DNA of 64,000 bases from Mesostigma viride (taxonomy: Eukaryota; Streptophyta; Mesostigmatophyceae; Mesostigmatales; Mesostigmataceae): positions 913,159 through 977,158 of the forward strand of contig RPFO01000406.1 of the NCBI GenBank assembly GCA_009746045.1. Direction: 5' to 3'. Within the stretch, counting starts at the first letter, position 1. Each line of letters starts with the position of its first letter. The notes below the pieces were generated by a model. The model ran no database searches, was not told where the DNA came from, and worked only from the letters and a program-made list of their open reading frames with translations. A program made the translations under genes and the position numbers. Below are positions 13,141 to 58,981 of the stretch, one piece after another.

Positions 13141-16100
13141 ACCCCCTCAGATGGCTTCCATTATTGCCAAGTCGATGGTCCCCTTGGTGACCCGTGTGGC
13201 GCGCGCCTGCCCAACCGGAATTCGTTGCTGGTGCACATTCGGGCTTCCCACCCCCACATCACGGAGGCCGCCATGCGCGCCATGGACTGCTACCGCTGCC
13301 CGGCAGCCCATTGCCAGCGGATTTTTTCGATCCACGGGCGGTACCAGCATGAGCGGCAGTGCCGCCGCCAAACCCCCCAGAACGGCCTGCCCGGCGGCCC
13401 GGCGGCCGCACCGGCCTCCCGGTCCGGGGCGGCCCCTCGGTCGGCCCCTGCCCCTCCACCGGCATCGCAGGGTACGAGCGATCCGGGGGACCTCTCGGCA
13501 GGCTGGGCATTCCTGGCCACGCTCCCTTTTGCCGCCTGTGCGCGCAACCCTTGCATGACGCTCCCGGACGTCCCTCACCGCGCCCGGAGCTTGTTTACGC
13601 GCTGCGCCCTGCTTTCCCTGGCCCGGATGCATAGTCACCCTCTCGACGAACTCGGCCACAAGCTGTTTCTCGTCACCCCCCGGCTCCTCTTAGCGCCGTT
13701 GGAGCGGGGCGTGCGTGGCGTACAGGGTGCGGTCATCGCTCGCTGCCGGCGGTTCCTCCTCGGGGATTGGGAAGGGCTGTGGGCGCTGCAGCCTCCGGCC
13801 TCCACCCGGGTGTCGGGGGCCGCCTCCTTTGCCCGGGTGGAAGCTGACGTCATGCGGTTGGTGAAGGTAGGTGAATTGAGCCGGGCCATGCAAAAGCTTG
13901 AACTGACCGCGTTGGCTCCCTCCACTCCCCCGACCCTGCAGGCTTTGCGCGACCTTCACCCCGACGAACCGGCCTTTGCGGTGCCCGCCCCGGCCACCCC
14001 CCCGCCCCCGCCTATTGTCCTGGACCTGGACATCTTCACGGCTGTGCTGAAGGATCTGCCGAACGCCTCCTCCACCGGCCCCTCAGGCTGGCGCTACGAG
14101 CACCTCTCCGTGATGGCGGGCCATGGCGGGGCGACCGCACTCTTTGAGGCTGCCGCCGACTTGGCCGCGGGGTCCCTGGCCCCCGCGGCGCGCCCTTGGC
14201 TGGCTGGGGCACGCCTCATTGCCCTCCTGAAAGACGACGTCCCCCCGCCTGCTGGCCGCGTTCGTCCCATTGCTTGCGGCGAGGTCCTACGCAAGCTGGT
14301 GAGTAAGGTCATTTGTCGCCAAAAGGCCCCCGAGTTTCGCGCCTACTTCTGCCCCAACCGGAGTGATACTGAGGAGTCCGTCGCGGCCCAGCTTGGCGTC
14401 GCCACCAAAGGGGGCAGCGACATCATCGTGCACACAGTTCAGGCCTACCTCGAGACGCATCCGACCCATGTGGCGCTGAAGGTGGATTGCCACAATGCGT
14501 TCAATGCTGTCACCAAGGCTAGCATCTTTGAGGCCGTCGGCGAGGCGTTCCCTGACCTTCTTGCGTGGACAGCAGCCTGCTACGGCGAACCCACTCAACT
14601 CTCCTTCCTCATGGAGGATGGGACGTTCGCCGACATCGCTTCCCGCACGGGAACCCAGCAAGGTGACCCCCTCGGCCCCTTTTACCTGTCTGCCCCGCTG
14701 CACAAGGCTCTCCAAGGTGTCCACGCTGCGCACCCGGATGTCGTGCTCCTCGCCTATATGGACGATATCCATGCCCTTGGCCCGGCCGACGCTGTGGTTG
14801 CCGCCCTGGCTGCCCTTGAAGTGGCCATGGCGGCCATCAACCTTCGGCTCACCCTCCCCAAGTGTGCAGTCTTTTCGCCCCAGGGGGACTGCTCTGGCTT
14901 CCCCGCGGCTATCCCGGGGGCATTGGCGCGGGCGCGTGGTTTCTCGTGCCTGGGCGTCCCTGTGGGTGACCCTGACTACGTCGAAGAGGAGCTCCGGGCC
15001 ACCGTGGAACAGCGCACCCATGTCCTCGAGACTTGGGCGCGCCTCAAGGACCCCCAGACCAAAGGGCTCCTCCTGTGGTTTTGCGCCCACCCGCGGGTGG
15101 TTCACTGGCTCCGTGGCGCTCCCCCCCACTTGGTGCGGCTTGCCGCGGAAGGCCATGACGAGCGCATTCAGGCCGCCTTGCAGGTGCTCCTCCCCGGCCC
15201 TAGCCTGCCAGCTCACTCCATGCGCTTGGCCACCCTCCCCTGCCGCATGGGCGGGTGTGGGCTCACCCGCGCCGCCCGCCTCGCCCCCGCCGCCTTCCTT
15301 GGCTCTGTTGCTCAGGCCTGGGCGGAGATCCGCCGGTTGGTCCCCAGCGCCGTCAGCGCCATTCCCGACTTGGTCACCCCATCCCCCTTCCCCTTTGTGC
15401 AGGCTGTGCAGGATTCTTACCTCGGGATCCAGCAGGCTTGCGACCTCGTCCGCCCCGCTCAGGCCGTCCACCGTCGCCTGCCCCGGGGCACGCCCGGCGT
15501 GTCCACTGTCGTCAGTCCTAGTGTCTTCCCTGCCTGCGTTCATGAAAAACAACAAAAGACCTACGCGGGTATACTACACTGTGCCGACTGGATGGGTCTG
15601 CATGCGAGCTTGAACGATCAGGGGAAGGCTTGGCTTCACTCCGTTTCCCTTGAGGGGAGCGTGGGGTCCGCATTCCTGCGCGCCCTCCCCATGAGCCCTT
15701 TGTTCACGCTGGTTCCGGCCCTTTACGCCATCGCTCTCCGCCACCAGCTCTTTGCCCCGCAACCTCTCATCACGGCGGGTGCGTCCTGCGGCAGCTGCGG
15801 GCTTGCTCTGGATACTACTGGGACGCACTACATCGCGTGCATGGGTGGCCAGCAGAACCAGAACTGGTTCCTCTATCTCCATACCGCTCTCCTCCGGGTG
15901 GTGTGTGCCATGGTTCGGTCGGTCTTTCCCCACTCCACCATCAAGTGCGAGGACGCGGATGGGGCCGCCCTCTACTCACCCAACCACCGCCCCGACATTA
16001 CCGTGCTTGACTACGACGGGCAGGGTTGCCACCTGCTCATCGATGTCTCCGTGGCTCGGCCGCTTTCCGGTCGCCACATCCTCCGGGCGGCTGTGGATGC

Positions 16101-16407
16101 CGGCGCTGCTGCCGCTGTGGCTGAGCGCGACAAGTTTGCCTCCTACGGCAATGTGGGGCCCCACCGGGTCATCCCCTTTGTCCTTGAGGAGTTCGGGGCC
16201 ATGGGCCCCAAGACAGCGGAGTTTTTCCACGAGTGCCGCCAGCGCCGTGAAGACCGCCTCGACCTCGAGGGTCAGACCGCCCCGTGGTCGGCCCGCACGT
16301 GGTCCTCGTATTGGCGGCAGCGCCTGTCACTCGCCCTCACTCGCACCGTGGCTGATGTGTTATTCCGCCGCACCCGGGCCGACTTTGTCGCGACCCATGC
16401 GGTCTAG
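13141..16407 (+). CDS. LINE ORF2: zinc fingers, reverse transcriptase, restriction-like endonuclease
   Basis: An open frame of about 1,089 codons; its start is unclear because the frame enters from a shift upstream (first ATG 13273). It would nick target DNA and reverse-transcribe its own RNA in the nucleus. Order: a C2H2 finger (about 13159-13256, 'HYC..' to 'HIRASHPH'), a second finger ('CYRCPAAHC' with H and C partners, 13285-13360), then RT with 'SGWRYEH' near 14085, 'GTQQGDPLGP' near 14650 and YMDD at 14755-14766. The C terminus has a CCHC knuckle (C-x2-C-x9-H-x3-C, 15787-15840) and 'RPDI' plus 'LLIDVSV' (about 15988-16053), the catalytic PD..D core of the R2-type endonuclease. It belongs to the early-branching REL LINEs (R2/NeSL/HERO/Utopia-like); the exact clade is not determined. 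The frame is intact, so the copy is fairly young. Confidence 0.88.
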   Translation, partial: TPSDGFHYCQVDGPLGDPCGARLPNRNSLLVHIRASHPHITEAAMRAMDCYRCPAAHCQRIFSIHGRYQHERQCRRQTPQNGLPGGPAAAPASRSGAAPRSAPAPPPASQGTSDPGDLSAGWAFLATLPFAACARNPCMTLPDVPHRARSLFTRCALLSLARMHSHPLDELGHKLFLVTPRLLLAPLERGVRGVQGAVIARCRRFLLGDWEGLWALQPPASTRVSGAASFARVEADVMRLVKVGELSRAMQKLELTALAPSTPPTLQALRDLHPDEPAFAVPAPATPPPPPIVLDLDIFTAVLKDLPNASSTGPSGWRYEHLSVMAGHGGATALFEAAADLAAGSLAPAARPWLAGARLIALLKDDVPPPAGRVRPIACGEVLRKLVSKVICRQKAPEFRAYFCPNRSDTEESVAAQLGVATKGGSDIIVHTVQAYLETHPTHVALKVDCHNAFNAVTKASIFEAVGEAFPDLLAWTAACYGEPTQLSFLMEDGTFADIASRTGTQQGDPLGPFYLSAPLHKALQGVHAAHPDVVLLAYMDDIHALGPADAVVAALAALEVAMAAINLRLTLPKCAVFSPQGDCSGFPAAIPGALARARGFSCLGVPVGDPDYVEEELRATVEQRTHVLETWARLKDPQTKGLLLWFCAHPRVVHWLRGAPPHLVRLAAEGHDERIQAALQVLLPGPSLPAHSMRLATLPCRMGGCGLTRAARLAPAAFLGSVAQAWAEIRRLVPSAVSAIPDLVTPSPFPFVQAVQDSYLGIQQACDLVRPAQAVHRRLPRGTPGVSTVVSPSVFPACVHEKQQKTYAGILHCADWMGLHASLNDQGKAWLHSVSLEGSVGSAFLRALPMSPLFTLVPALYAIALRHQLFAPQPLITAGASCGSCGLALDTTGTHYIACMGGQQNQNWFLYLHTALLRVVCAMVRSVFPHSTIKCEDADGAALYSPNHRPDITVLDYDGQGCHLLIDVSVARPLSGRHILRAAVDAGAAAAVAERDKFASYGNVGPHRVIPFVLEEFGAMGPKTAEFFHECRQRREDRLDLEGQTAPWSARTWSSYWRQRLSLALTRTVADVLFRRTRADFVATHAV

Positions 16408-24553: not shown

Positions 24554-25123
24554 GAATTCTCTGCTGCTGGCTGCGGCGTGGGACACAACAACAACAGTTA
24601 CAACAACAACAACAACAACAACAACAACCGGTAATTAGGTTGAGCTGTTGCAACTTGCAGACTTCAGAGGGATTGTTCGCCTTAGAAGAATTCGCCATCG
24701 TGTTCGCGTGTTCGGTCATTGTTGTTTTCGTTGTTTTCGTCTCTCCCAAATGATAAGTTTGTTATTGAATATATAACTCTGTTGCACCTTACTCGGCATG
24801 ATTCGTTCATACCAGGCAGAACACACCGCATCCCATCAGACCTGCGAAGTTAAGCTGCCTTGGGCCAGTTTAGTAGTGTGATCGGTGACGGCACGCGAAT
24901 CCCTGGTGACGAATTGTACCCTTTGCTTCGCCCCCATTTTGGGCAATTTATTTTGCTAGCTCTTACCTACATTTCTTTTGCCAATGTTTTAACGCACCGC
25001 GCCCGCCTTTTCCACCAGGGAATGCCAGTTCACACTACACCGCCTCGCCCGTACGAACACATGTTGTTGTTGTTCTTGTTCTTGTTCTTGTGTCCCACGC
25101 AGCAGTCAGCAGCAGAGAATTCT
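24554..25123. repeat. Inverted repeat around the 5S-like sequence, with (CAA)n
   Basis: The left arm GAATTCTCTGCTGCTGGCTG...GGGACACAA (24554-24590) and the reverse complement at 25087-25123 enclose a (CAA)n array (24589-24629) and the 5S-like sequence. The same arrangement recurs in units 2 (about 41872-42441) and 3 (about 55085-55648); the (CAA)n length differs between units. Confidence 0.65.
24795..24920 (+). rRNA. 5S rRNA-like gene, unit 1
   Basis: A 126-base sequence with the core of eukaryotic 5S rRNA: 'CATACCAG' near the start, 'GCATCCCATCAGA', then 'GAAGTTAAGC' and 'CTTGGGC' (the box A region), followed by weaker internal and C-box matches. The 5' and 3' ends pair over about 12 positions (GGCATGATTCGT with ACGAATTGTACC, one mismatch), forming helix I. 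TTTT, a Pol III stop, follows about 17 bases later. The box C region departs from the usual GATGGGTGACC. It could be a true but divergent 5S gene, a pseudogene or a 5S-derived SINE. It sits in a triplicated unit rather than in a 5S array. Confidence 0.65.
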
Positions 25124-26854: not shown

Positions 26855-27274
26855 TGGACCGAGTAACAACCGGTCAAAAGGTCCTAACTACACGTAAACG
26901 TAGAAAAGTCAACAGTCGTAACCACGGACTGTTTCGGAATAGTAGCTGAGGCCACCAAGAACGTTAAGCCTCAATCAACTTACGGCTGTACAAACACAGT
27001 TTGTTACCCGCCGTAACACGCTAGGGCTGAGGGTTCGGGATGTGGCCCATCCTGGCCATGCACCCCCTTCTCGAGCCAGGGCCCACGGTCGGTGCCCTTG
27101 TGCTGCGCAACCCCAAGACTGCGCAGGGGGCGGCCCAGCACGTCCTTGTCCGGGATCCACTTTCTTTGTGGCTCCTGCGTCGCCATGACGGCTGGCCAGC
27201 CCCTGGATGAACTTCTTTTTCGGGGTTTAACGTACAGCCAGACTAGGCAGCAGTGGGAGGCTGTGCAAGCCCGC

Positions 27275-27847
27275 TGTTACGTCGCGTAACAATTCGTTGT
27301 AGTTACGGACGTAAATTAGGTCGTTTGCCTCGGTTGTCCCTAGGTTTACGTTTAGGCTCCTACCGGGACATTATTGTCCTCATAACAGTACTGTGGTACA
27401 TTGGGTGTCGTTGGGCGCCGCGCCGCGTACTTTACTAGTGGCCCTGATCCTGTGGTAGAATGTAGTGGACCAGCGTGCATCAGTAGATGTAGTGGACCAG
27501 CGTGCATCTGTAGGCGAGGGCCATGTCGGCCCGAGCGTGTTGGACCGTTGGTGACCATTTATGCGCGTTCTACCCCTTGTGTGTGCACTCGGCGTGTGTT
27601 AAATGAATTGACACATTTAGGCTTGGGTCACGGCAGTGTAGTTGTGTTTCCCTCCTCTATTCCTGGAGTAAACGGGTTTTGATAAATGGTTGTATGGCGT
27701 ATTATAGTAACACTTACGTTAATGCATTGAGATCAGCTCCGTCACGTTCGTCTTTCGCCAGAGGGTTGAGTAGAGGAGGCCTGACCAGTTTAGGTAGTAT
27801 CAGGCCCATTAGAGGTAGAGGTGGAGGTAGATATCCGCGGCGTAACA
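27275..27847 (+). repeat. 5' LTR of the Ty3 element
   Basis: 573 bp, TG...CA. Differences from the 3' LTR are A/G and T/C near 27381-27411, A/G and C/G near 27433-27448, T/A near 27716 and G/T near 27765. Confidence 0.95.
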
Positions 27848-27848
27848 A

Positions 27849-27863
27849 TGGTTCCGGAGGAAC
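27849..27863 (+). promoter_or_regulatory. Candidate primer-binding site
   Basis: TGGTTCCGGAGGAAC begins one base after the 5' LTR. TGG is the expected complement of a tRNA CCA end. The rest is self-complementary (GTTCC/GGAAC), so self-priming is an alternative; the primer tRNA is not identified. Confidence 0.5.
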
Positions 27864-28364
27864 TTCAGTAGGTAGTGAACGAGACGACTATCCCTTGCCA
27901 CATACACCTTTTCAAGACCCCTTCCGCGTCCAGGAACAAGAAGTCGACACTTCCTTGATAGGTAATGGGCGGGTCGCCTTCAAGCTAGGAGAGTAGTGCT
28001 GCCCGTTTCGGGACACGCTCTACCTAGAAGCTAGACCTGCTCGCAGCGGATAAATCCTTTCGTAGTTAGCCTGTCCTTCGCCTTGTTTTCCTGCTTACGG
28101 TTGTTTCCTGTCTTAGATAGGGGAGTATTACTGTTCGGAGACGATTAGCGTCGCAGTACCTACACCTTTTTCCTTGTGCTGCTGCTTTATTAGACGGCCG
28201 CACCCGCAGAGTTACGGGCGCTGTGTTAGGACGAGCGCTGGATATCCGGCCGCTGACTTAGGACGAGAGCTGGAAATCCGCCCTCTTCTTCTTTCGGTGA
28301 TCCAGATCGTCCAGCTAAGTCGCCTACCCCTACCCGTCTAGCTTGACATCACAAGACCCACCAG

Positions 28365-28860
28365 GTGAGTTATCATGAGTCAACGTCGTGTTTTTACTGC
28401 GCCTTCCCATTCATCTAGTGATAATAGTTTAGCTAAGTATTACGTAGTTATTACCCCTCAATGGTCAGCCATTTTCCTCTCTTGGTCAGATGCTAGGAAG
28501 ATAGTGCAAAATCGTACATATAATGTAATTAGGTATAAGAAATTTGTTACCTTCGAGGAAGCTCAACAATTCCTTATAGACCATAGCGTATCAGATCTAG
28601 GCCTACACGTACGTTCTACTCCTCATGGTCGCCCTCCTGTAGAAGCTCTAGATTTTGCTACCCCTCCTTCGTCTCCCCCTAAGAGGGCTGCATCCTCATC
28701 TAGCTTAGATACTCCTCTCACCTTAGAATTCGGTTCCCTATCCATTACTGTTGTTAAAAAGGATTGATTTAAATTGTTCCTTCTTTTAAGCCATTAAAAG
28801 CTTTTTCCTTTTCTTTCCTTGCCTTAATTAGGCCTTGTCCTTTATCCTTGTTGCTTTCAG
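28365..28860 (+). other. Candidate intron in the Ty3 leader
   Basis: The donor CCAG/GTGAGT (28361-28370) and acceptor TTGCTTTCAG (28851-28860), behind a strong pyrimidine tract (28801-28850), bound 496 bp. Splicing would remove the whole hybrid-binding ORF and bring the gag start at 28889 close to the cap. Inferred from sequence only. Confidence 0.5.
28375..28767 (+). CDS. RNase H1-type hybrid-binding domain protein (accessory ORF)
   Basis: A 130-codon ORF starting at an ATG 10 bases after the candidate splice donor. Residues about 21-68 ('KYYVVITPQWSAIFLSWSDA' and on to 'FVTFEEAQQFL') match the RNase H1 N-terminal hybrid-binding/caulimovirus-P6 fold: a YYVV strand, a W-S-A turn, 'W.da...v', then 'yKKFvTfeeAqqFL'. 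Such domains bind RNA/DNA hybrids or dsRNA. The C-terminal half is Pro/Ser-rich. Unlike gag and pol this frame is intact. It lies inside the candidate intron, so it would be made from unspliced RNA. A role in handling the hybrid made during reverse transcription is an inference. Confidence 0.7.
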   Translation: MSQRRVFTAPSHSSSDNSLAKYYVVITPQWSAIFLSWSDARKIVQNRTYNVIRYKKFVTFEEAQQFLIDHSVSDLGLHVRSTPHGRPPVEALDFATPPSSPPKRAASSSSLDTPLTLEFGSLSITVVKKD

Positions 28861-28888
28861 TTAGATTTGATCATTTACTTAAATAAAA

Positions 28889-30467
28889 ATGGATCCAGTG
28901 GGTGGTAACATGTCGCCTATACCTACCAATACTCCTACTATGAGTAATAATAATAATAATACTAACAACCATAACAACAATCGTGGTAACCGACGGGACT
29001 CACTTGAAACGGTGCACCATCTCACTCCTCAAGGTAATCTTCGTGCCTCACCTCCTTCTCCTTTGCTGGTGGTCGCCGTCGTCCCTCACTTACCCCTCCT
29101 ACCTATGAACAACGTCAACGTATGCAAGTCAGATTTAGTGATGACCCTTCCCTTACCCTGAACCAGGCCCCTGCCCCTCCTGCAACCTTGGCTCAACCCT
29201 CCAGCAGGTCCTCACTAACTAACAATGTTTTTAGGCCTCCTTCCCACCCTGTGCCTTCCATGCCTGCTCTTAACACGGGTCGTGCCTCTGCCCCTGTCGG
29301 TCCTTCTGGGCGCCCTAGTGCAGTTCCCTTTTACCCACCTGCTTCCTGGTCCTACCCTGAGACGGCCTATGAGGCAGCCCAGGTCCCTACCCGTGTGGCT
29401 GATTTAGAAGTTAATAGTGATTTCAGCACCATGCCCTAGATGATAGAAATTATGATCATTTTGCCTATTCCTCTCTTCGTGAGCAATATACTGTCCCCTT
29501 CTCTTATGGGCACCAGCCTGAAACGGTGGCCCCTTCTAGACCCCTACCCAAGACTTTTCCTCTTCCTTCCTTCTATCCCGCTTATGTAGCAGTGGAAGAT
29601 AGTGGCCCTATGGGAAAAACTGACTCTTCTAATCCCCCTAAGCCCCCTGCTCTTCCCCTCTTTGCTAACCTTCCCAAGCTGGATGTCAAGTCTACCCCTC
29701 AACAGTTTTTCACCTTTATTATGTTGCTTACCCAGAACACGGAGTCGTGGCAGAATCATAATAGATGGCGTCTTTCTGATGCTGTATTAGTTCCTCACTA
29801 TCTTACAACCTGTATTACTCCTGAGCTTGCTAACCTCATTCAGTGTGAGTCTTTGGCCTCTCATGCCTACCCTAACTCTGTAGCAGAATTGTTTAAGCGT
29901 TTAGAGAACCATTTAGTCCCTCCTGATTCAGATTGGCAGGATAGATTAGCCTTTGGTACCTTGCAGCAGGGTACTAAATCATTTAAGGAGTATATGAAAG
30001 AGTTTGATGCTCAGATGGTACGAATTAGGGATTTGTCGGGTGCAGAAGTACGTGCTCGCTTCCTCCAAGGCCTCAGTAGACCCTTATTACGTGAAGTCAA
30101 GCGCCAGTTCTCTGCCTACCGTTTTACTGATCTGCCCCTCAAGCATGTGCGCCAGCATCTCTTGCGTGTAGCAGATTTCTTCACCACCCCTTCTCTTCCT
30201 ACCCGTTCCCGTATTAATAATATTATCCTTACCCCTGAGGAGGAGAACTCCTATGTAGAAGAATTAGATATCTGTGTTACTGACCTTTCAGCCCTTGATG
30301 TCTCTCATATCACATGCTATCATTGTAAGGAAGTAGGTCATCTTAAACGTGAGTGCCCCAAGTTCCTTTCGGGTGCTCCCCCTCATCCCGACGCTCGCCC
30401 TCCTCGTACCCCTCAGCGTGCTCCTATTCGTCCTACTTCAGGACGCATTCCCTTCAGCTACCCCTAG
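28889..30467 (+). pseudogene. Ty3 gag (capsid and zinc knuckle), frameshifted
   Basis: Gag forms the particle that packages element RNA. The ATG at 28889 opens an Asn-rich and Pro-rich N-terminus. The frame moves by one near 29050-29070 and again near 29436, after which an open frame to 30467 carries the capsid region (about 29680-30200, retrotransposon-gag type with 'FKEYMKEFDAQ' and 'RFLQGLSRPLL') and a CCHC knuckle, C-x2-C-x4-H-x4-C ('CYHCKEVGHLKREC'), at about 30313-30357. Sequence after the stop still looks gag-like in another frame up to about 30624. The shifts may be real or base-calling errors. Confidence 0.82.
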
Positions 30468-30624
30468 TAGGCTGAATGCTGTGCAGACAGGCCCCAGGGT
30501 TCCCCTATGATAATCAGGCTCCCGCACCCTCTTCGCTCCCTCGTGACCCTCCAGCAGTGGCTTTTTCGCCAGGGTCTTCTTCGGGGTTAGTTCCTATGGA
30601 TTTGGGGGGGGAGGGGGAACAGTA

Positions 30625-31434
30625 GGCCTGTCAGCCGGGGGTAACCTGGACAGGTCCTTAGATAGTACCCCAGATAAAAATTTTTGCCTGCCTGTTTTTA
30701 TAACCTCTGTAGGAGCTGAATCTTCCCTACCACTACGTGTGCGTCCTCTTATGTTCTTGAATGGTGGTTTAACCGTCCCTCACACTGTTGTAGACCCCTT
30801 CTTGCATGCTGATGAACTCTTGAATGTCTCTGTGTTGGTAGATAGCGGTGCGGCTAGCTCCTTTGTGAGCGAGGCCCTAGTTAGGCGTTTAGGACTAGTC
30901 CCTACCCCTCACACCAAACCCGTTACTGTTCATTATGCTGATGGTCGCACCAGTCATTCCCCGGGTACGGTGTCCCTTCCCATGGTTATACAAGGACGTA
31001 CTGTCAACCTGACGGCCACTATAGGCCCTATCACTACCGCTGATGTATTACTAGGATTAGATTGGCACCAGGATAATAAGATTACTATTAATTATGATAC
31101 CATGGTCATTTGGTTTCCAGATAGCTCTTACTGGGTACCTGAACGTCATTATAGATTGGAAAATTTATCCTTGGTAGATATTACTCCTCCTACACCTGTT
31201 GATCCTCCTGTAAGACCTATACCTGAAGTATTAATGTCCAATGATGAGTTGCGTTCTGAACTAAAGGAATATGGATATTTATTATGTATGTTCCTTCAGT
31301 TAGAAGTACAGGAGATACCTATCACTAATAATAGTGTGGATATAGATATAAACACAGTGGATACAATAGGAGTGGGATTTACTGAAAATGAAATAGTAAG
31401 ATACATGGCTGTGATAGATTCCTCAAAGTTTTGA
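30625..31434 (+). CDS. Ty3 protease region of pol
   Basis: An aspartic protease that matures Gag-Pol. The active-site block 'VLVDSGAASSFVS' lies near 30835-30873 (DSG with flanking hydrophobics), and 'DVLLGLDWH' near 31044-31070 is the matching C-terminal motif. The frame is +1 relative to the capsid frame and runs to a stop at 31434, where the RT frame takes over within a few bases. The first ATG is 30751, but the protein is probably made as a fusion. Confidence 0.8.
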   Translation, partial: GLSAGGNLDRSLDSTPDKNFCLPVFITSVGAESSLPLRVRPLMFLNGGLTVPHTVVDPFLHADELLNVSVLVDSGAASSFVSEALVRRLGLVPTPHTKPVTVHYADGRTSHSPGTVSLPMVIQGRTVNLTATIGPITTADVLLGLDWHQDNKITINYDTMVIWFPDSSYWVPERHYRLENLSLVDITPPTPVDPPVRPIPEVLMSNDELRSELKEYGYLLCMFLQLEVQEIPITNNSVDIDINTVDTIGVGFTENEIVRYMAVIDSSKF

Positions 31435-33118
31435 AGAAAAGACTCCTTCTTATCCTCCTCCTCGTTCTGTTTTACACCGTGTAGTTATCAAGGACGGTGC
31501 AGTTCCTACGCACTCTCCGATGTATAGAATGGGCCCTACCGAGTTAAAGGAACTAAAACAGATTTTAGTGTCATTATTAGAAGCAGGATTGATAGAGCCT
31601 AGTAACTCCCCCTACTCAGCTGGTGTCCTGTTAGTTCCTAAGCCAAATGGCAAGTTTCGCCTAGTTACTGATTATAGGAAGTTGAATGATATTACTGTGA
31701 AGTCTAAATACCCTCTACCTCGTATTGATGATATATTTAATAAGGTTAAAGGTTCCACTTGTTTCACAGTACTGGATTGTGCGGATGGTTTTTGGCAGTT
31801 GCGGATAGCTCCTGAGGATTGCCATAAAACCGCCTTTGCTACCCCTTTTGGTCATTACCAGTTTAGAGTAGCGGCTATGGGACTCTGTAACTCGCCTGCC
31901 TCTTTTCAAATGTTAATGAATGAAGTGCTTAGACCTGTTATGGGAAATTCTCATCTTCCTCAGGTGTCCTCTGATCTAAAGGATCCTTCCTTCTCCTCTG
32001 TTTCTTTATCTGAGCATGACCGTTCTTGTGCTCAAGCTTACTTAGATGATATTCTTATTTACTCTCCTGATTTTGAAACGCACCTACGTGATTTAAAGAA
32101 AGTATTAGAAATAATGGCTGAAAATTCTTTGTGGGCGCGCCGTGCTAAAGTGCGTTCGGGTAGGAGTGTCCCATTTTTAGGGCACGTTCTGTCAGATGCC
32201 GGGGTCGCTACCGACCCGGATAAAACTAAGTCAATTCAGGAATGGCCTACTCCTACCGACGTTAAAGGTGTACGTAGTTTCCTAGGAATTGCTTCTTACT
32301 ATAGGCGTTTTATCCCGCGTTTCGCAACTATAGCAGCCCCTATTAATCATTTATTAAAGAAGGATATCCCCTTTGTTTGGAGTAGTGAATGTCAGTCGGC
32401 TTTTCAGTGCCTAAAATCCCTACTCCTTTCCCCTCCTGTACTCATCCTACCGGATACTACTAAACCCTTTGTTGTGGCTACAGATGCTAGTAAAGTAGCT
32501 ATAGGTGGTGTCCTTCTCCAGGATCAGGGTCAGGGCTTACAGCCAATTGAGTATATCTCTAGGACAATGCTCCCTGCGGAGCGTAACTATCCCGTACACC
32601 AGCAGGAACTCTTAGCTGTGGTGTATTGTTGCCACGCGTGGCAGCACTTCCTTAAAGGTGCTCAATTTGATGTCTGCCTGAATGAACCCTGTGAGCTAGA
32701 TCCTTATAGGTTAGTTATCCAAACGGATCATCGTCCCCTTACCCATCTTCTCTCCCAACCCAACCTTACCCCTCGGCAAGCGCGCTGGATGGAATTTTTA
32801 GCACAGTTTTCCCCTTTTAAACTTCAGTATGTCAAGGGTGTAGATAACATAGTACCAGATGCACTCTCTCGTCGTGCAGACTATTCCTTCTTCGAGGACC
32901 TTGATGTTCTCAATACTACTCTAGTTCCTACTACTATGGGTGTAACCCCTTATGGTGAACTACCTGATGATGAATCCTATGCCTACCTCTTTCATACAGC
33001 TGTTCGCATGCCTGATCTCCTTTCTCACGTAGGACTCTCTCTCCCGTGTGAGGCCCTTCCCGTGGCCTCGGTGGGGGGGAGGGGAAAAATAAAATTTCTA
33101 TACCGCTTAGCCATATAG
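31430..33118 (+). CDS. Ty3 reverse transcriptase and RNase H
   Basis: RT copies element RNA and RNase H degrades it. Motifs in order: 'SPYSAGVLLVPK' and 'RLVTDYRKLND' (about 31610-31690), 'LDCADGFWQL', 'FRVAAMGLCNSPASFQ', then the catalytic YLDD at about 32039-32050. Between the 'FQMLMNEVLRP' block and YLDD there are about 30 extra residues not usual in Ty3 RT. RNase H follows from about 32480 ('ATDASKVAIGGVLLQ', 'QQELLAVV', 'QTDHRPL', 'PDALSRR'), with about 18 extra residues after 'FLKGAQF'. The frame differs by one from protease and is lost near a G-rich run at about 33070. Confidence 0.92.
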   Translation, partial: FEEKTPSYPPPRSVLHRVVIKDGAVPTHSPMYRMGPTELKELKQILVSLLEAGLIEPSNSPYSAGVLLVPKPNGKFRLVTDYRKLNDITVKSKYPLPRIDDIFNKVKGSTCFTVLDCADGFWQLRIAPEDCHKTAFATPFGHYQFRVAAMGLCNSPASFQMLMNEVLRPVMGNSHLPQVSSDLKDPSFSSVSLSEHDRSCAQAYLDDILIYSPDFETHLRDLKKVLEIMAENSLWARRAKVRSGRSVPFLGHVLSDAGVATDPDKTKSIQEWPTPTDVKGVRSFLGIASYYRRFIPRFATIAAPINHLLKKDIPFVWSSECQSAFQCLKSLLLSPPVLILPDTTKPFVVATDASKVAIGGVLLQDQGQGLQPIEYISRTMLPAERNYPVHQQELLAVVYCCHAWQHFLKGAQFDVCLNEPCELDPYRLVIQTDHRPLTHLLSQPNLTPRQARWMEFLAQFSPFKLQYVKGVDNIVPDALSRRADYSFFEDLDVLNTTLVPTTMGVTPYGELPDDESYAYLFHTAVRMPDLLSHVGLSLPCEALPVASVGGRGKIKFLYRLAI

Positions 33119-34755
33119 CGACTAGGTCAGGAAAGTCTTATGAAAACGTAGTCCCTCTAGGACCTCCCCTTCTCTTTGGCAAGGCGGTAGGAGATCTCTT
33201 TAAACCTGTTCTGGATACTTCTGTAGCGATGCCTACCTCTGATCTTGAACGCCTTATTAGTAGATTTACGGCCACTGAGCCGGAAGCATTAGCTGCCATT
33301 GCTGCACATCCCCAACAATTAGGCAAGCACCCTTGTAAATTTGTAGGTGGGTTTTTATATGTGCAGATAGCAGATTCTCCCCCTCAATGGCGCCTGTATG
33401 TCCCTCCTATCTGTCGCTCCTCCTTGCTCTTTGAGTTGCATGACTTAGCTGCTCATCAGGGTGGTAAACGGGTACGGGACCTAGTAGCCCGCTCTTATTA
33501 CTGGCCTTCCCTTTATAAGGATGTAGATGAGTATGTTAGAACTTGTCAATCTTGCCAGGAAATGAAACCCAATAATGTAGGACAGATAGCAGAACCTAGG
33601 ACCTTGCCTGACCCCATCATGCCTTGGGATTCTATCATGATGGATTTTGTAGGACCTTTTAGAAAGAATGATAGGGGCAATGCCCAAATCCTTGTGTTCA
33701 TAGATCGTTTTACTCGTATGTGCCATCTTGTGCCGTGTCCTTTAGAACTCACCGCACGTGATTGCGCACGCCTATACCTCAATAATGTATATAGATATCA
33801 TGGATTGAGTAGGCAGTTTATTAGTGATAAGGATAAATTATTTACCTCAGATTTTTGGCAGCAGTTTTTCGCTGCCATCGGTACCAAGGTTACCTACGGT
33901 ACTGCCTACCACTCCTCCTCCTCTCATTTAGTAGAGCGTCTTAATAGAGTAGTAGAAGAAGCGCTTAGGCACTATGTTAATGGCTCGGGTAGTGATTGGG
34001 AGGATTATTTATGTTTGGTAGAGTTCTCCCTCAACAATTGTCCCCAAGCTGCGCATGGATATACGCCCTTCTTCTTAGATACTGGTAGACAGCCCCTTAC
34101 CCCTACCTCTCTCTTAGCTAGTCCTCTACGGGACAAGGATGATGTGTCCCGAGATACTGTAGAAGGTGTACAGTCCTTACTAGATAGAATGAAAACTGCT
34201 CATGACCACGCGATCTCAGGGTACCAAAAAGCTCAGGCTAAGTACCTTGCTAGGTTGCGTGCCTCCTTAGATAGACGAGCACCTGAGATAGAAATAGGAG
34301 ATCTAGTATTAGTAGAAGGCCCCCGTGTTGGCCGTTTTGCTCATAAGTTTGAAGCAGAACTGAAGGTCAAACTTAGGCCCGCCTTCTTAGGACCCTTCCA
34401 TGTGTTGTCTAGGGTAGGAAATTTCTTATATAAAGTCGATATCCCTACCTCTTGGCAAACGCATTCAAACACCTTCCATAGGAGCCAGCTTAAACTGTAC
34501 CACCCTAGTACGTTCGCTGGCAGGGAGTTAGCGCCTGCCCCTTTAGAGCATAACCCTGACACTGGGGAAGTAGAAGACGAAGTAGAAAGCATCGTGGCCC
34601 ATAGAGATATCAAAAAGGGCCGCGGTACCCAGCGTCAGTATAAAGTGAAGTGGATGTATGCTCGTAGTGAAGTAGATAAGGTTTGGTATACGGAGAGTGA
34701 GCTAGATGGGTGTAGTCGCCTGCTGCAGGAATATAAAACCCTGCACAAGCTCTAG
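33090..34755 (+). CDS. Ty3 integrase with C-terminal chromodomain
   Basis: The integrase inserts the cDNA; chromodomains guide chromoviruses to marked chromatin. An HHCC zinc domain ('LHDLAAHQGGKRVRDLV' to 'CQSCQ') lies at 33436-33560. DDE residues: Asp in 'MMDFVGPF' (about 33640), Asp in 'FISDKDKLFTS' (about 33820) and Glu in 'LVERLNR' (about 33930). The usual 'YHPQTDGQ' before it reads 'YHSSSSHL'. A GPF module follows ('FLGPFHVL', about 34388), then a chromodomain at about 34580-34740 ('VESIVAHRDIKKG', 'YKVKWM', 'WYTESEL'). ORF from 33229 to the stop at 34755; in-frame coding seems to extend back to about 33090. Confidence 0.92.
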
Positions 34756-34812
34756 TTGTAGGCCTTCTCCTCTCTTATGTTATGTCTGCTGTCGACGGGT
34801 GGTTGGTTGTCC

Positions 34813-34826
34813 CCTCCCCTCCGCAG
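34813..34826 (+). promoter_or_regulatory. Candidate splice acceptor before the extra 3' ORF
   Basis: A C/T-rich tract (from about 34808) ends CCGCAG, with the ATG of the next ORF six bases further on. It could pair with the leader donor at 28364/28365 to give a short env-like mRNA. Confidence 0.4.
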
Positions 34827-34831
34827 CCGTC

Positions 34832-36500
34832 ATGTCAGAGCCTACCCCTCCGGCTGAGAGCCCGCCGCCGTCCCTGCCCCTACCGGACCCTGAGCTGTAC
34901 TTCGAGGCCCTTCCGGGCCGTTGGGTGTCACGGTCTAGTTTCCCGGATGGCGTCGTGCATCCGGCCCTCCAGGCCCAGCATGCGGGCCTAGTCAGGGCGG
35001 CTCTCTTCGGGGTCACGTGGTACGGTCCTTCCCCTGCTGAGCCGCATCAGCTTGTTTTGCACGGGTTCGACGATGCCGGCCACTGTTTGCTAGAATGTGG
35101 CTCCAGCTGTCCAGCCCTGGGACAGATAGCTGCGATTCTCCAGTGCCCCAGGGTGTTTTCCTACCTTTCTACCCCTGTGGGCCGTTCCTGCCTACGGGAT
35201 GTATTCCCCTGGCTTCCGGCCGAGGGTGATGCGGAAATGGATGAGAACCCCTGCGACCTTTTACGGGCCGTAGAGTTCATGGAGATAGCAGACCAGAACG
35301 CGGGCGTAGGATTGGGCGACCCTACCCCTACGGACGCGCCGGTAGAGGCGCAGTATTCCCCTGAGTATTCGGCCTCCCCTGCGGCGTCTTCCTCGTCAGG
35401 GTCCGACGCGGCCCCCTGTTGTACCGGCTCCTTCTGCGCCTGTGCCGGTTCCTACCCCTTCGTCGGCCCCTGCCCCTTCGGCCCCGCGGTCTTTGGCTGC
35501 GGTTGTTCGGTCCAGTGGCCCTGACCCGCGCGCCACCCGCGCTGCCGATTCCCTTCGGGAGTTGTCAGAGGGCGATCGGGATCGGGCCCCTTCTGTGGTG
35601 CATGCGACTCCGGAGTCGCGCAACACGCCTGTCTTCGGGTATGGTATGTCTGCGCTCGCTTGCCGCCAGTGTGACCTGCCGCGCGCCTCCGCCGAGCTTG
35701 CCATTTTGCCCATGTCCTACGGGTTCTCCCAGGTGTGTCGGGCGCCGCGGGACCGTAACCTACCAGTTGATACTGATCGGCCTCCTTTCGACATGGTTAT
35801 TTTGGCTGATCCGGTGTTCCAGGGTGAGATCCTGGTTCGGCGCGTCCTGTACCGCTGGGCGCGGCGCCACAATGACTTGGACACCTACGGCGGGTTCCAG
35901 TGGGCTTACCCTCCGCCTCTGGGCATTATGGCCTCCGATGCTCTTACGGTAGATTTTCCTTCGGTGCCGGGTGCCACGTACAGCACCGTCCTTCAGCCCA
36001 TCCTAGAGTGGGATGCCCGTCGTCCAGCGCCCATCCCGGGCCAGGGTTTGGACTCTCGGGGTCATCCTCCTCCCCGGGCTAGCGACTACCTCGAGACGTT
36101 CGGGTCGCGACAGTGTGCCCGCCGGTGGCGCTCCCGCGAGATTCGACATATCCGGTTGTGGCCGTCCAACGTGGAGCCCCTGGTAGATCTGTTTTTCCCG
36201 ACGGGTATGCGCCCTCGGATCCGGTATCATCGCCTGCTCCTTCGGGCTCTCTGCCTGATCGCGGTAGAGCCTTTCCTACGCCTCTTTGCCTGCGGTTTCC
36301 TGGACTGGGCCCGGGGCCAGGTCGTTCTTACTCAGCATAGGTACTACTGGGCCTTCCTGGGCCTTTTTCCTGACGGCGTGTGGGCCGATGTTTTCCTCAC
36401 TGTAGATAGGCACGACAATGCTGAGGATGTGTCTCACTACCAGGCTTACCTGGATGTCCTGCTGGCCTCCCGTGGTACCTACCAGACGGATGGCCATTAG
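34832..36500 (+). CDS. Large accessory ORF between integrase and 3' LTR, unknown function
   Basis: About 556 codons if a single one-base shift at the C-run near 35410 is ignored (ATG 34832; first frame to about 35415, second to the stop at 36500). It sits where env sits in retroviruses but has no signal peptide, no clear membrane anchor and no fusion-type motif; the longest hydrophobic stretch is near 36240-36300. N-terminal part acidic and Pro-rich; the middle is a Pro/Ala/Ser linker; the C-terminal 280 residues look globular, with many W, R and Y. No known domain recognised. It is visibly more GC-rich than gag-pol, hinting at capture from elsewhere. Long uninterrupted frames argue for coding. 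Confidence 0.6.
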
Positions 36501-36852
36501 ATAGAGGGCCTTAGGCCCGACCTGAGGGTGTTGTCCCTCCGGTATGTAGAGTCGCCCTCATATTCTGGCCAGTTGACTGGTCGTTCTTGGTCCTTGGTGC
36601 TGATTGGTTTACTCTGTGTGTCCTGCCCAGTGCCGTTCCCCCCCGGCAAGGACTTTGTTCCAGGCAGTTGGGGGAACCTACCACCAGGCTTGGTGCTGGC
36701 TAACCCTACACCTCCAGGCGTGGTGGTGGAGACCGTGTGAACTATTGGTGCTTTGTATCTTGGATGGCCTGCCGACTGTGTTAGTGTGTGCTGGGTGCAT
36801 TAGGTTTCCTACCCCTTGTTTTCCTCCCTGAGCGTAGGGAGAGGGCTCCCTA

Positions 36853-36870
36853 CCTTTGTGGGGGGGGAGG
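36853..36870 (+). promoter_or_regulatory. Polypurine tract of the Ty3 element
   Basis: A run of G with flanking purines ending GGAGG directly before the 3' LTR, the expected plus-strand primer. Confidence 0.85.
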
Positions 36871-37443
36871 TGTTACGTCGCGTAACAATTCGTTGTAGTT
36901 ACGGACGTAAATTAGGTCGTTTGCCTCGGTTGTCCCTAGGTTTACGTTTAGGCTCCTACCGGGACATTATTGTCCTCGTAACAGTACTGTGGTACATTGG
37001 GTGCCGTTGGGCGCCGCGCCGCGTACTTTGCTAGTGGCCCTGATGCTGTGGTAGAATGTAGTGGACCAGCGTGCATCAGTAGATGTAGTGGACCAGCGTG
37101 CATCTGTAGGCGAGGGCCATGTCGGCCCGAGCGTGTTGGACCGTTGGTGACCATTTATGCGCGTTCTACCCCTTGTGTGTGCACTCGGCGTGTGTTAAAT
37201 GAATTGACACATTTAGGCTTGGGTCACGGCAGTGTAGTTGTGTTTCCCTCCTCTATTCCTGGAGTAAACGGGTTTTGATAAATGGTTGTATGGCGTATTA
37301 TAGTAACACATACGTTAATGCATTGAGATCAGCTCCGTCACGTTCGTCTTTCGCCAGAGGTTTGAGTAGAGGAGGCCTGACCAGTTTAGGTAGTATCAGG
37401 CCCATTAGAGGTAGAGGTGGAGGTAGATATCCGCGGCGTAACA
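36871..37443 (+). repeat. 3' LTR of the Ty3 element
   Basis: 573 bp, about 99% identical to the 5' LTR; followed by CCCGC. Confidence 0.95.
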
Positions 37444-37497
37444 CCCGCATGGGCATTCCGGGGATGTTTTCTTTTCACAGCCTCCGACATGGGGGGG

Positions 37498-38556
37498 CCA
37501 ACCAGGTAGACACATCACGTGGCCCCCCCGCAAGACTGCGCCCAGCTCAGCCTGGCCGGCACCTACTACTACTCACCTCTGGCCGGGCCCCGCAATGCTA
37601 GACGCCGCAAGGCCCTCACCTTCAAAGAATAGCTAGTAGAGGACATGGGGGGTCTAGGCCTCTCTGTGATTTGGCACAAGATGATGGACATTGAGGCCAA
37701 CTTGTGCAGGGCCCAGGTCATAGAGTCCTCAACGAACCCCCTCCCGTGGGGATCGGGCTTCGAAGCGCCCGCGTGTTTGCAAACGCGGGAAGCATGCTAG
37801 ACAAGACCCCAGTACTAGGGTAGAGGGCACCATAGATATAGAGTTGGCTTGATGTTGTAGATAGATTAGACCGGTAGGATTGCGTGTACATACCCATCCA
37901 TCCATCAATCCATCCATCCATCCATCCATCCATCCATCCATCCATCCATCCATCCATCCATCCATCCATCCATCCATCCATCCATCCATCCATCCATCCA
38001 TCCATCCATCCATCCATCCATCCATCCATCCATCCATCCATCCATCCATCCATCCATCCATCCATCCATCCATCCATCCATCCATCCATCCATCCATCCA
38101 TCCATCCATCCATCCATCCATCCATCCATCCATCCATCCATCCATCCATCCATCCATCCATCCATCCATCCATCCATCCATCCATCCATCCATCCATCCA
38201 TCATCCATCCATCCATCCATCCATCCATCCATCCATCCATCCATCCATCCATCCATCCATCCATCCATCCATCCATCCATCCATCCATCCATCCATCCAT
38301 CCATCCATCCATCCATCCATCCATCCATCCATCCATCCATCCATCCATCCATCCATCCATCCATCCATCCATCCATCCATCCATCCATCCATCCATCCAT
38401 CCATCCATCCATCCATCCATCCATCCATCCATCCATCCATCCATCCATCCATCCATCCATCCATCCATCCATCCATCCATCCATGAGTTCCATCAGGGTT
38501 AATGCTCCGTGACTCCCCAACGGGAGCACGATTTTTTGATATACACTAATTAATTA
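37498..38556 (+). mobile_element. LINE-D, 5'-truncated, with (CCAT)n array (unit 1)
   Basis: Inserted in the recombinase gene with ATGGGGGGG duplicated at 37489-37497 and 38557-38565. The first 250 bp or so codes, in broken frames, for a LINE ORF2 C-terminus ('NQVDTS', 'AQPGRHLLL'), parallel to LINE-A 'DQVDTSDRLAGTKPAQPGRYVL'. The 3' UTR holds the (CCAT)n array. It ends in a GCTCCGTGACTCCCC...GGGAGCACG stem-loop, TTTTTTGATATACAC and a short TTAA tail. Confidence 0.8.
37894..38484. repeat. (CCAT)n array, 591 bp (unit 1)
   Basis: Tetranucleotide array with two interruptions (CAATCC near 37906, CATCATCC near 38200). It lies in the LINE-D 3' UTR. All ORFs through it are artefacts of the repeat. 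Confidence 0.97.
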
Positions 38557-42112: not shown

Positions 42113-42238
42113 GGCATGATTCGTTCATACCAGGCAGAACACACCGCATCCCATCAGACCTGCGAAGTTAAGCTGCCTTGGGCCAGTTTAGTATTGTGAT
42201 CGGTGACGGCACGCGAATCCCTGGTGACGAATTGTACC
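42113..42238 (+). rRNA. 5S rRNA-like gene, unit 2
   Basis: Nearly identical to the unit 1 copy; one change in the GTAGTGTGATCG segment (G to T). Helix I and the box A region are kept. Confidence 0.62.
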
Positions 42239-44174: not shown

Positions 44175-44643
44175 TGGACCGAGTAACAACCGGTCAAAAG
44201 GTCCTAACTACACGTAAACGTAGAAAAGTCAACAGTCGTAACCACGGACTGTTTCGGAATAGTAGCTGAGGCCACCAAGAACGTTAAGCCTCAATCAACT
44301 TACGGCTGTACAAACACAGTTTGTTACCCGCCGTAACACGCTAGGGCTGAGGGTTCGGGATGTGGCCCATCCTGGCCATGCACCCCCTTCTCGAGCCAGG
44401 GCCCACGGTCGGTGCCCTTGTGCTGCGCAACCCCAAGACTGCGCAGGGGGCGGCCCAGCACGTCCTTGTCCGGGATCCACTTTCTTTGTGGCTCCTGCGT
44501 CGCCATGACGGCTGGCCAGCCCCTGGATGAACTTCTTTTTCGGGGTTTAACGTACAGCCAGACTAGGCAGCAGTGGGAGGCTGTGCAAGCCCGCATGGGC
44601 ATTCCGGGGATGTTTTCTTTTCACAGCCTCCGACATGGGGGGG

Positions 44644-45751
44644 CCAACCAGGTAGACACATCACGTGGCCCCCCGCAAGACTGCGCCCAGCTCAGCCTGG
44701 CCGGCACCTACTACTACTCACCTCTGGCCGGGCCCCGCAATGCTAGACGCCGCAAGGCCCTCACCTTCAAAGAATAGCTAGTAGAGGACATGGGGGGTCT
44801 AGGCCTCTCTGTGATTTGGCACAAGATGATGGACATTGAGGCCAACTTGTGCAGGGCCCAGGTCATAGAGTCCTCAACGAACCCCCTCCCGTGGGGATCG
44901 GGCTTCGAAGCGCCCGCGTGTTTGCAAACGCGGGAAGCATGCTAGACAAGACCCCTACTAGGGTAGAGGGCACCATAGATATAGAGTTGGCTTGATGTTG
45001 TAGATAGATTAGACCGGTAGGATTGCGTGTACATACCCATCCATCCATCCATCCATCCATCCATCCATCCATCCATCCATCCATCCATCCATCCATCCAT
45101 CCATCCATCCATCCATCCATCCATCCATCCATCCATCCATCCATCCATCCATCCATCCATCCATCCATCCATCCATCCATCCATCCATCCATCCATCCAT
45201 CCATCCATCCATCCATCCATCCATCCATCCATCCATCCATCCATCCATCCATCCATCCATCCATCCATCCATCCATCCATCCATCCATCCATCCATCCAT
45301 CCATCCATCCATCCATCCATCCATCCATCCATCCATCCATCCATCCATCCATCCATCCATCCATCCATCCATCCATCCATCCATCCATCCATCCATCCAT
45401 CCATCCATCCATCCATCCATCCATCCATCCATCCATCCATCCATCCATCCATCCATCCATCCATCCATCCATCCATCCATCCATCCATCCATCCATCCAT
45501 CCATCCATCCATCCATCCATCCATCCATCCATCCATCCATCCATCCATCCATCCATCCATCCATCCATCCATCCATCCATCCATCCATCCATCCATCCAT
45601 CCATCCATCCATCCATCCATCCATCCATCCATCCATCCATCCATCCATCCATCCATCCATCCATCCATCCATCCATCCATGAGTTCCATCAGGGTTAATG
45701 CTCGTGACTCCCCAACGGGAGCACGATTTTTTGATATACACTAATTAATTA
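44644..45751 (+). mobile_element. LINE-D with (CCAT)n array (unit 2)
   Basis: Duplicate of 37498-38556; TSD at 44635-44643 and 45752-45760. Confidence 0.8.
45037..45680. repeat. (CCAT)n array, 644 bp (unit 2)
   Basis: 161 units with no interruption that I can see. Confidence 0.97.
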
Positions 45752-55325: not shown

Positions 55326-55445
55326 GGCATGATTCGTTCATACCAGGCAGAACACACCGCATCTCATCAGACCTGCGAAGTTAAGCTGCCTTGGCCCAGT
55401 TTAGTAGCCGTGACGGCACGCGAATCCCTGGTGACGAATTGTACC
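55326..55445 (+). pseudogene. 5S rRNA-like sequence, unit 3 (deleted)
   Basis: Same sequence but with a 6-base deletion in the GTGTGATCGG region plus substitutions at CATCTCATC and TTGGCCC. This removes part of the internal promoter and helices IV/V, so it is probably a pseudogene. Confidence 0.6.
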
Positions 55446-57381: not shown

Positions 57382-57850
57382 TGGACCGAGTAACAACCGG
57401 TCAAAAGGTCCTAACTACACGTAAACGTAGAAAAGTCAACAGTCGTAACCACGGACTGTTTCGGAATAGTAGCTGAGGCCACCAAGAACGTTAAGCCTCA
57501 ATCAACTTACGGCTGTACAAACACAGTTTGTTACCCGCCGTAACACGCTAGGGCTGAGGGTTCGGGATGTGGCCCATCCTGGCCATGCACCCCCTTCTCG
57601 AGCCAGGGCCCACGGTCGGTGCCCTTGTGCTGCGCAACCCCAAGACTGCGCAGGGGGCGGCCCAGCACGTCCTTGTCCGGGATCCACTTTCTTTGTGGCT
57701 CCTGCGTCGCCATGACGGCTGGCCAGCCCCTGGATGAACTTCTTTTTCGGGGTTTAACGTACAGCCAGACTAGGCAGCAGTGGGAGGCTGTGCAAGCCCG
57801 CATGGGCATTCCGGGGATGTTTTCTTTTCACAGCCTCCGACATGGGGGGG

Positions 57851-58981
57851 CCAACCAGGTAGACACATCACGTGGCCCCCCGCAAGACTGCGCCCAGCTC
57901 AGCCTGGCCGGCACCTACTACTACTCACCTCTGGCCGGGCCCCGCAATGCTAGACGCCGCAAGGCCCTCACCTTCAAAGAATAGCTAGTAGAGGACATGG
58001 GGGGTCTAGGCCTCTCTGTGATTTGGCACAAGATGATGGACATTGAGGCCAACTTGTGCAGGGCCCAGGTCATAGAGTCCTCAACGAACCCCCTCCCGTG
58101 GGGATCGGGCTTCGAAGCGCCCGCGTGTTTGCAAACGCGGGAAGCATGCTAGACAAGACCCCTACTAGGGTAGAGGGCACCATAGATATAGAGTTGGCTT
58201 GATGTTGTAGATAGATTAGACCGGTAGGATTGCGTGTACATACCCATCCATCCATCATCCATCCATCCATCCATCCATCCATCCATCCATCCATCCATCC
58301 ATCCATCCATCCATCCATCCATCCATCCATCCATCCATCCATCCATCCATCCATCCATCCATCCATCCATCCATCCATCCATCCATCCATCCATCCATCC
58401 ATCCATCCATCCATCCATCCATCCATCCATCCATCCATCCATCCATCCATCCATCCATCCATCCATCCATCCATCCATCCATCCATCCATCCATCCATCC
58501 ATCCATCCATCCATCCATCCATCCATCCATCCATCATCCATCCATCCATCCATCCATCCATCCATCCATCCATCCATCCATCCATCCATCCATCCATCCA
58601 TCCATCCATCCATCCATCCATCCATCCATCCATCCATCCATCCATCCATCCATCCATCCATCCATCCATCCATCCATCCATCCATCCATCCATCCATCCA
58701 TCCATCCATCCATCCATCCATCCATCCATCCATCCATCCATCCATCCATCCATCCATCCATCCATCCATCCATCCATCCATCCATCCATCCATCCATCCA
58801 TCCATCCATCCATCCATCCATCCATCCATCCATCCATCCATCCATCCATCCATCCATCCATCCATCCATCCATCCATCCATCCATCCATCCATCCATCCA
58901 TCCATCCATGAGTTCCATCAGGGTTAATGCTCCGTGACTCCCCAACGGGAGCACGATTTTTTGATATACACTAATTAATTA
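57851..58981 (+). mobile_element. LINE-D with (CCAT)n array (unit 3)
   Basis: Duplicate of 37498-38556; TSD at 57842-57850 and from 58982. Confidence 0.8.
58244..58909. repeat. (CCAT)n array, about 666 bp (unit 3)
   Basis: Two CATCATCC interruptions (near 58255 and 58534). Confidence 0.97.

Follow-up and report, generated by a model that had tools for sequence, protein, structure and literature searches.

Chromoviruses (Ty3/Gypsy, Metaviridae) share a characteristic architecture: LTRs, a gag gene with a zinc knuckle, a Pol ordered as protease, reverse transcriptase, RNase H and integrase (PR-RT-RH-IN), and a Tf2-1-type SH3 domain plus chromodomain at the integrase end. The element that we describe here is built in the same way; unlike those relatives, it adds a long 3′ ORF and, before gag, an ORF for a putative duplex-binding protein together with a candidate leader intron. 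Among the matches listed in the open-licence literature, none was a chromovirus in which a duplex-binding ORF precedes gag. Ogre, which is not a chromovirus, also has an ORF before gag, and we know of no duplex-binding domain at that position in Ogre. Passages of PMC12786077 describe the Ogre/Tat group as plant Ty3/Gypsy elements with a functional intron, and sections of PMC9289625 report both that plant Ty3/Gypsy lineages carry additional ORFs and that a putative intron in Ogre separates gag from pol. Extra ORFs and introns as such are already known in plant LTR elements, to go by excerpts of three papers (PMC12786077, PMC9289625, PMC7264820). A candidate intron and an extra ORF are what our element has in common with Ogre/Tat as described in those excerpts; the difference is that the putative Ogre intron lies between gag and pol, whereas the candidate intron here lies before gag.

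Three further systems bear on the extra ORF. Caulimovirus P6/TAV shares its PF01693 domain; in a passage of PMC3836500 the CaMV protein is given as 520 aa, whereas the present one has 130 aa and is encoded in the leader of an LTR element. According to portions of PMC5902531, the motif also found in our accessory ORF sits in the part of CaMV TAV that activates TOR for polycistronic translation; the same portions state that TAV may assist the export of unspliced RNA, and that its TOR-activating part is dispensable for RNAi suppression. A precedent for an accessory RNA-fate protein in an LTR element is Cer1 of C. elegans, which, in a passage of PMC12786077, encodes a protein needed to export its own unspliced RNA; there the accessory protein comes from spliced RNA, whereas in the scheme proposed below it would come from unspliced RNA. 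Finally, the N-terminal domain of eukaryotic RNase H1 belongs to the same Pfam family, and its binding-face W and KK align with ours; unlike RNase H1, the accessory ORF is without the RNase H catalytic domain.

The element occupies positions 27275-37443 (+ strand) of the window, by which we mean the whole 64-kb stretch of DNA that was analysed. It is a complete chromovirus-type LTR retrotransposon by domain definition, with the following parts:

27270..27274, no strand: 5′ target-site duplication CCCGC (same five bases at 37444-37448)
27275..27847, + strand: 5′ LTR, 573 bp, TGTTACG...CGTAACA, 567/573 identical with the 3′ LTR
27848..27865, + strand: presumed primer binding site, directly 3′ of the LTR, placed by position only
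28889..30467, + strand: gag region with Retrotrans_gag and zinc knuckle, frame broken in the window copy
30739..31434, + strand: aspartic protease region (PF13975, E 2e-11)
31520..33118, + strand: reverse transcriptase and RNase H (PF00078, PF17919, PF17917)
33229..34755, + strand: integrase, Tf2-1-like SH3 domain and chromodomain (PF17921, PF00665, PF24626, PF00385)
36860..36870, + strand: polypurine tract GGGGGGGGAGG, preceding the 3′ LTR
36871..37443, + strand: 3′ LTR, 573 bp, recognized by LTR-LTR identity
37444..37448, no strand: 3′ target-site duplication CCCGC (same five bases at 27270-27274)

The class assignment follows from domain content and order by Pfam (gag, zinc knuckle, aspartic protease, reverse transcriptase, RNase H, integrase, Tf2-1-type SH3, chromodomain), with Pol in the PR-RT-RH-IN order and the chromodomain at the integrase C terminus (PF00385, E 3.1e-8, 33.8 bits against a cut-off of 25.1); the reverse transcriptase was compared by similarity search only. 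That search returned 5016 proteins at E <=1e-30 among 7982 scored; the best 120 of these 5016 were 33-47% identical, and no relative above 47% identity was among those 120 matches. In viral contigs, no relatives of either the reverse transcriptase or the accessory ORF were confirmed. The gag and pol frames of the window copy are interrupted several times. The element itself is common and recently active, being both young and high-copy.

The LTRs and target-site duplication are complemented by empty sites: the element is inserted in one unit of a large repeat, and two other units in the window retain the uninterrupted site (44583-44606 and 57790-57813), so the insertion is either younger than the repeat duplication or was missed by it. 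The repeat unit contains 5S rRNA genes (24799-24917, 42117-42235 and 55330-55442); the retrotransposon sits in the first of these three 5S-bearing units, and the other two keep the empty site. Elsewhere in the window are a 1044-codon ORF with a reverse transcriptase domain (13273-16407), likely a non-LTR retrotransposon, and long simple-repeat arrays that yield MDGW-repeat ORFs (37718-38493, 44863-45689 and 58070-58918).

Before gag, the element has an additional gene:

28375..28767, + strand: accessory ORF, 130 aa, with an RNase H1 N-terminal (hybrid-binding) domain at residues 21-66 (PF01693, E 8.6e-8)

This ORF is intact over its 130 codons. The match to PF01693 (RNase H1 N-terminal/caulimovirus P6 domain) takes in all 44 profile positions, at 32.7 bits against a cut-off of 21, and this is the only Pfam family found at E up to 0.1; at that threshold there is no RNase H catalytic domain, which sets the protein apart from an RNase H1 enzyme. 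The nearest solved structures by sequence are RNase H1 chains, weakly matched (best 3bsu_A, E 0.023; three matches at E up to 1). A single-sequence structure model, of low confidence (mean pLDDT 43), has the order beta-beta-alpha-beta-alpha, which we take to be that of the RNase H1 N-terminal domain. When the protein is aligned to the solved RNase H1 chains, its W37 and K55-K56 face residues that are, in what we take to be the human numbering, W43 and K59-K60. Mutation of W43 and K59-K60 in human RNase H1 is said, in a passage of PMC10639055, to compromise RNA:DNA binding. Judged from its sequence, the accessory protein consists of a duplex-binding domain of RNase H1 type and a tail and has no nuclease part; its predicted ligands are RNA/DNA hybrids or double-stranded RNA. 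The original prediction had described a chromovirus with an intact 130-codon ORF bearing an RNase H1 N-terminal/P6-type domain, and had suggested a search against the profile of that domain; the Pfam domain order, the unbroken frame and the profile match bear out the description.

A database search with the accessory protein gave one match among 41 candidates, namely P0001 (73 aa), which comes from an Alexandrium andersonii dataset. It spans accessory residues 58-130 and so takes in just the end of the domain; it is identical at 64/73 positions, including the final 19 residues. The similarity may reflect horizontal transfer, a shared host group or contamination. Since this sole protein homologue is from Alexandrium, we tested the window for the dinoflagellate spliced-leader motif, in what we take to be its sequence, and found 0 matches in the 64 kb at up to 3 mismatches. 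P0001 is this similar although the best reverse transcriptase identity is <=47% among the 120 matches listed of 5016.

We also searched the element's own genome (440 Mb, 2243 contigs) with the accessory ORF. This gave 1500 candidates, of which 150 were scored under a ranking that favours identical copies; all 150, the window's own included, were 100% identical in the ORF, with no stop. For comparison we used 30 copies with 1.5-kb flanks and two more, i.e., 32 distinct other copies over 40 loci. At 3 sites the window ORF departs from the form that most of the 30 copies have; all three are third codon positions, a pattern forced by the choice of copies with identical protein. In 3/30 copies, the gag frame from the 28889-type ATG stays open through the 457 codons read; it ends after 17-239 codons in 20/30, and after 90 codons in the window copy, and the exact start was not matched in 7/30. 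We take the ATG at 28889 to open gag because of the 457-codon frame in those three copies, which back this probable start.

These copies bear on whether the ORF has any role in the element at all. It might be a passenger, i.e., an RNase H1 fragment captured once and carried along, without function, by a recent burst: copies as near-identical as these would keep the ORF by recent common descent alone, and transposable elements do capture domains of this type, a captured Helitron gene of Pleurotus with pfam01693 having already been reported (in a section of PMC4289320). We nevertheless consider a passenger distinctly improbable, since the 64/73-identical homologue in another organism's dataset points to persistence beyond a burst, if it is not contamination, and since the ORF is whole in 30/30 copies as against a gag open in 3, ended early in 20 and unmatched in 7, a contrast that is biased by the ORF-based ranking of the copies.

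A second line of evidence concerns where the accessory ORF lies, which we describe by these features of the leader:

27694..27996, + strand: leader ORF, 100 codons, Arg/Gly-rich, starting in the LTR, putatively coding, no Pfam match
27968..28374, + strand: ATG-free leader, 407 nt, 0 ATG in 31/31 aligned sequences
28362..28370, + strand: candidate splice donor CAG/GTGAGT, present in 40/40 loci (32 other copies)
28365..28860, + strand: candidate leader intron, 496 nt (496 or 497 in 40 loci), putatively spliced
28831..28860, + strand: candidate acceptor ending ...TTTATCCTTGTTGCTTTCAG, from sequence scoring and copy comparison

The last exon base at the candidate donor is 28364, and the accessory ATG at 28375 stands 10 bases on. 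No other MAGGTRAGT lies on the + strand of the 64 kb, and this site is the top-scoring GT donor there by a generic matrix. The donor originally claimed just ahead of the ORF stands at the position described. On both strands of the 64 kb, CAGGTRAGT was found once against 0.95 expected by chance; the count is about that of chance, and what is notable is the donor's place. Because about one such donor is expected by chance per 64 kb, that place is all that speaks for splicing in the donor. The acceptor TTGCTTTCAG ends at 28860, with the gag ATG at 28889 following 28 bases on. Its score was reached by 324/1000 dinucleotide shuffles of 28768-28888, on which ground we rejected acceptor strength as proof of splicing, and was equalled at 28489 inside the accessory ORF; upstream of it there are only two YTNAY sites, both loose (28827 and 28844), with none of CTRAY type. 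Consensus donor and acceptor are thus present in the right order for a spliceosomal GT-AG intron, the acceptor not above chance; the predicted position of the acceptor stands.

Another observation is the spacing of ATGs. There is none in 27968-28374, nor between the acceptor and the gag ATG, in 31/31 aligned sequences (30 copies and the window); the first of these stretches is only mildly unusual, in that 5.6% of 2000 shuffles were also without ATG. The first ATG after 27968 is therefore that of the accessory ORF if the RNA is unspliced, and that of gag if it is spliced. The leader ORF that begins at 27694 is present in 30/30 aligned copies, at 87-119 codons, and overlaps the presumed primer binding site; it would interfere with a first-ATG model if the RNA starts before 27694. 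A fusion of this leader ORF to gag via the GT at 27961 was rejected by eye: the frames do not meet in the window, and in the exon form of other copies a stop comes first.

Donor and first acceptor are found 496-497 nt apart in 40/40 loci (32 other copies). As these copies are near-identical and were ranked by ORF identity, their retention of the ORF, donor and acceptor is weak, non-independent evidence of constraint; the comparison of copies that had been proposed as a check of the intron found all three present, in a set that does not test constraint. Intron-less copies would be a sufficient, not a necessary, sign of splicing, and a joined-exon query for the junction 28364/28861, the halves of which match all 40 loci exactly, gave 0 matches in the 440-Mb genome at up to 2 mismatches. 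An element as abundant as this one might occasionally have its spliced messages reverse-transcribed, and to that extent the absence counts against splicing; it fits no splicing, and equally spliced RNA that is not packaged, e.g., with a packaging signal in the intron, and does not decide between them. The idea that unspliced RNA yields the accessory protein and spliced RNA yields Gag is matched by the ATG spacing, and it is set back by the ordinary acceptor and the missing joined junction. On balance, we put at about even the chance that the gene for the duplex-binding protein lies within a spliced leader intron, which we regard as plausible but unproven.

Both proteins might instead be made from one polycistronic RNA without splicing, the accessory ORF being translated and gag reached by reinitiation or shunting, as in caulimoviruses, perhaps with help from the accessory protein. 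The 121 nt that separate the accessory ORF from the gag ATG hold no ATG, the genome has no spliced-junction copies, and a PF01693-type domain lies within CaMV TAV, the dsR part of which, according to a passage of PMC5902531, binds and activates TOR, which the transactivation of polycistronic translation requires. We think this rather unlikely, as it gives no reason for a consensus donor to stand 10 nt before the ORF, would have to contend with four other ATGs between 28375 and 28889, and appeals to TAV although Pfam finds here only the duplex-binding domain and not the remainder of that protein.

The 3′ end of the element contains two more features of interest:

34803..34826, + strand: second candidate acceptor, the best-scoring of the element, between the pol stop and the 3′ ORF, exact in 7/10 long loci
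34832..36500, + strand: 3′ ORF region, GC-rich, frameshifted in the window copy, no known domain

This acceptor ends 5 bases before the 3′ ORF ATG at 34832, and in the remaining three of the ten long loci the alignment stops short of it. Counting from an upstream ATG, two other copies keep the 3′ ORF open for 753 and 796 codons. Pfam gives no match for it, and its product has a single hydrophobic stretch, a borderline one. Six long loci extend over its later part, which there is ~9-13% different from the window copy; over the ten loci, the remainder of the element is mostly ~0.6-2.8% different, with one piece at the pol/3′ ORF border reaching 4.7%. The same six loci (L033, L034, L035, L036, L038 and L039) have ~630-640 bp extra in the 3′ ORF region relative to the window copy.

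Because the best acceptor-like site of the element just precedes this long ORF, one donor might serve two acceptors, at 28860 and 34826. Such an arrangement resembles retroviral splicing in its one donor and two acceptors, with the difference that here the accessory gene, not gag, would be on the unspliced RNA. Splicing could also be retrovirus-like, running from the donor to 34826 only, with gag expressed from unspliced RNA and the 28860 acceptor there by chance. Splicing to an env-like 3′ ORF is reported for plant elements such as Bagy2 (in a section of PMC7264820), and the relative scores of the two acceptors, with 28860 not above chance, agree with it; yet the gag message would then carry the accessory ORF ahead of gag, the 3′ ORF, on its Pfam result and single borderline hydrophobic stretch, is not clearly an envelope gene, and no junction of the 28364/34827 type is found in the 40 loci. 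We judge this version quite unlikely.

Returning to the leader-intron reading, we hypothesize that the leader acts as an intron that is weak or under regulation. The full-length RNA destined for packaging as genome would give the duplex-binding protein from the first ATG after a long ATG-free leader; RNA spliced 28364/28861 would give Gag-Pol, and a further splice, 28364/34827, might give the 3′ ORF product. More tentatively, the accessory protein may bind RNA duplexes or RNA/DNA hybrids formed by the element itself, and may help full-length RNA to escape splicing or to enter reverse transcription. In its boldest form, which we hold to be possible yet somewhat unlikely, splicing from the one leader donor would be three-way: unspliced genome RNA for the duplex-binding protein, one splice for Gag-Pol and a second for a 3′ accessory protein, with the duplex-binding protein controlling the balance and marking the RNA that is to be packaged and reverse-transcribed; the retrotransposon would then keep its genome and its message on separate RNAs.

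Given the abundance and youth of the element in its genome, the splicing reading is directly testable by RNA reads. If true, it would be a case outside the retroviruses in which splicing parts the genome RNA from the coat-protein message, and in which the intron itself codes for a protein, one that bears the caulimovirus P6 domain; Ty3/Gypsy elements would thereby be linked to the expression strategies of pararetroviruses.
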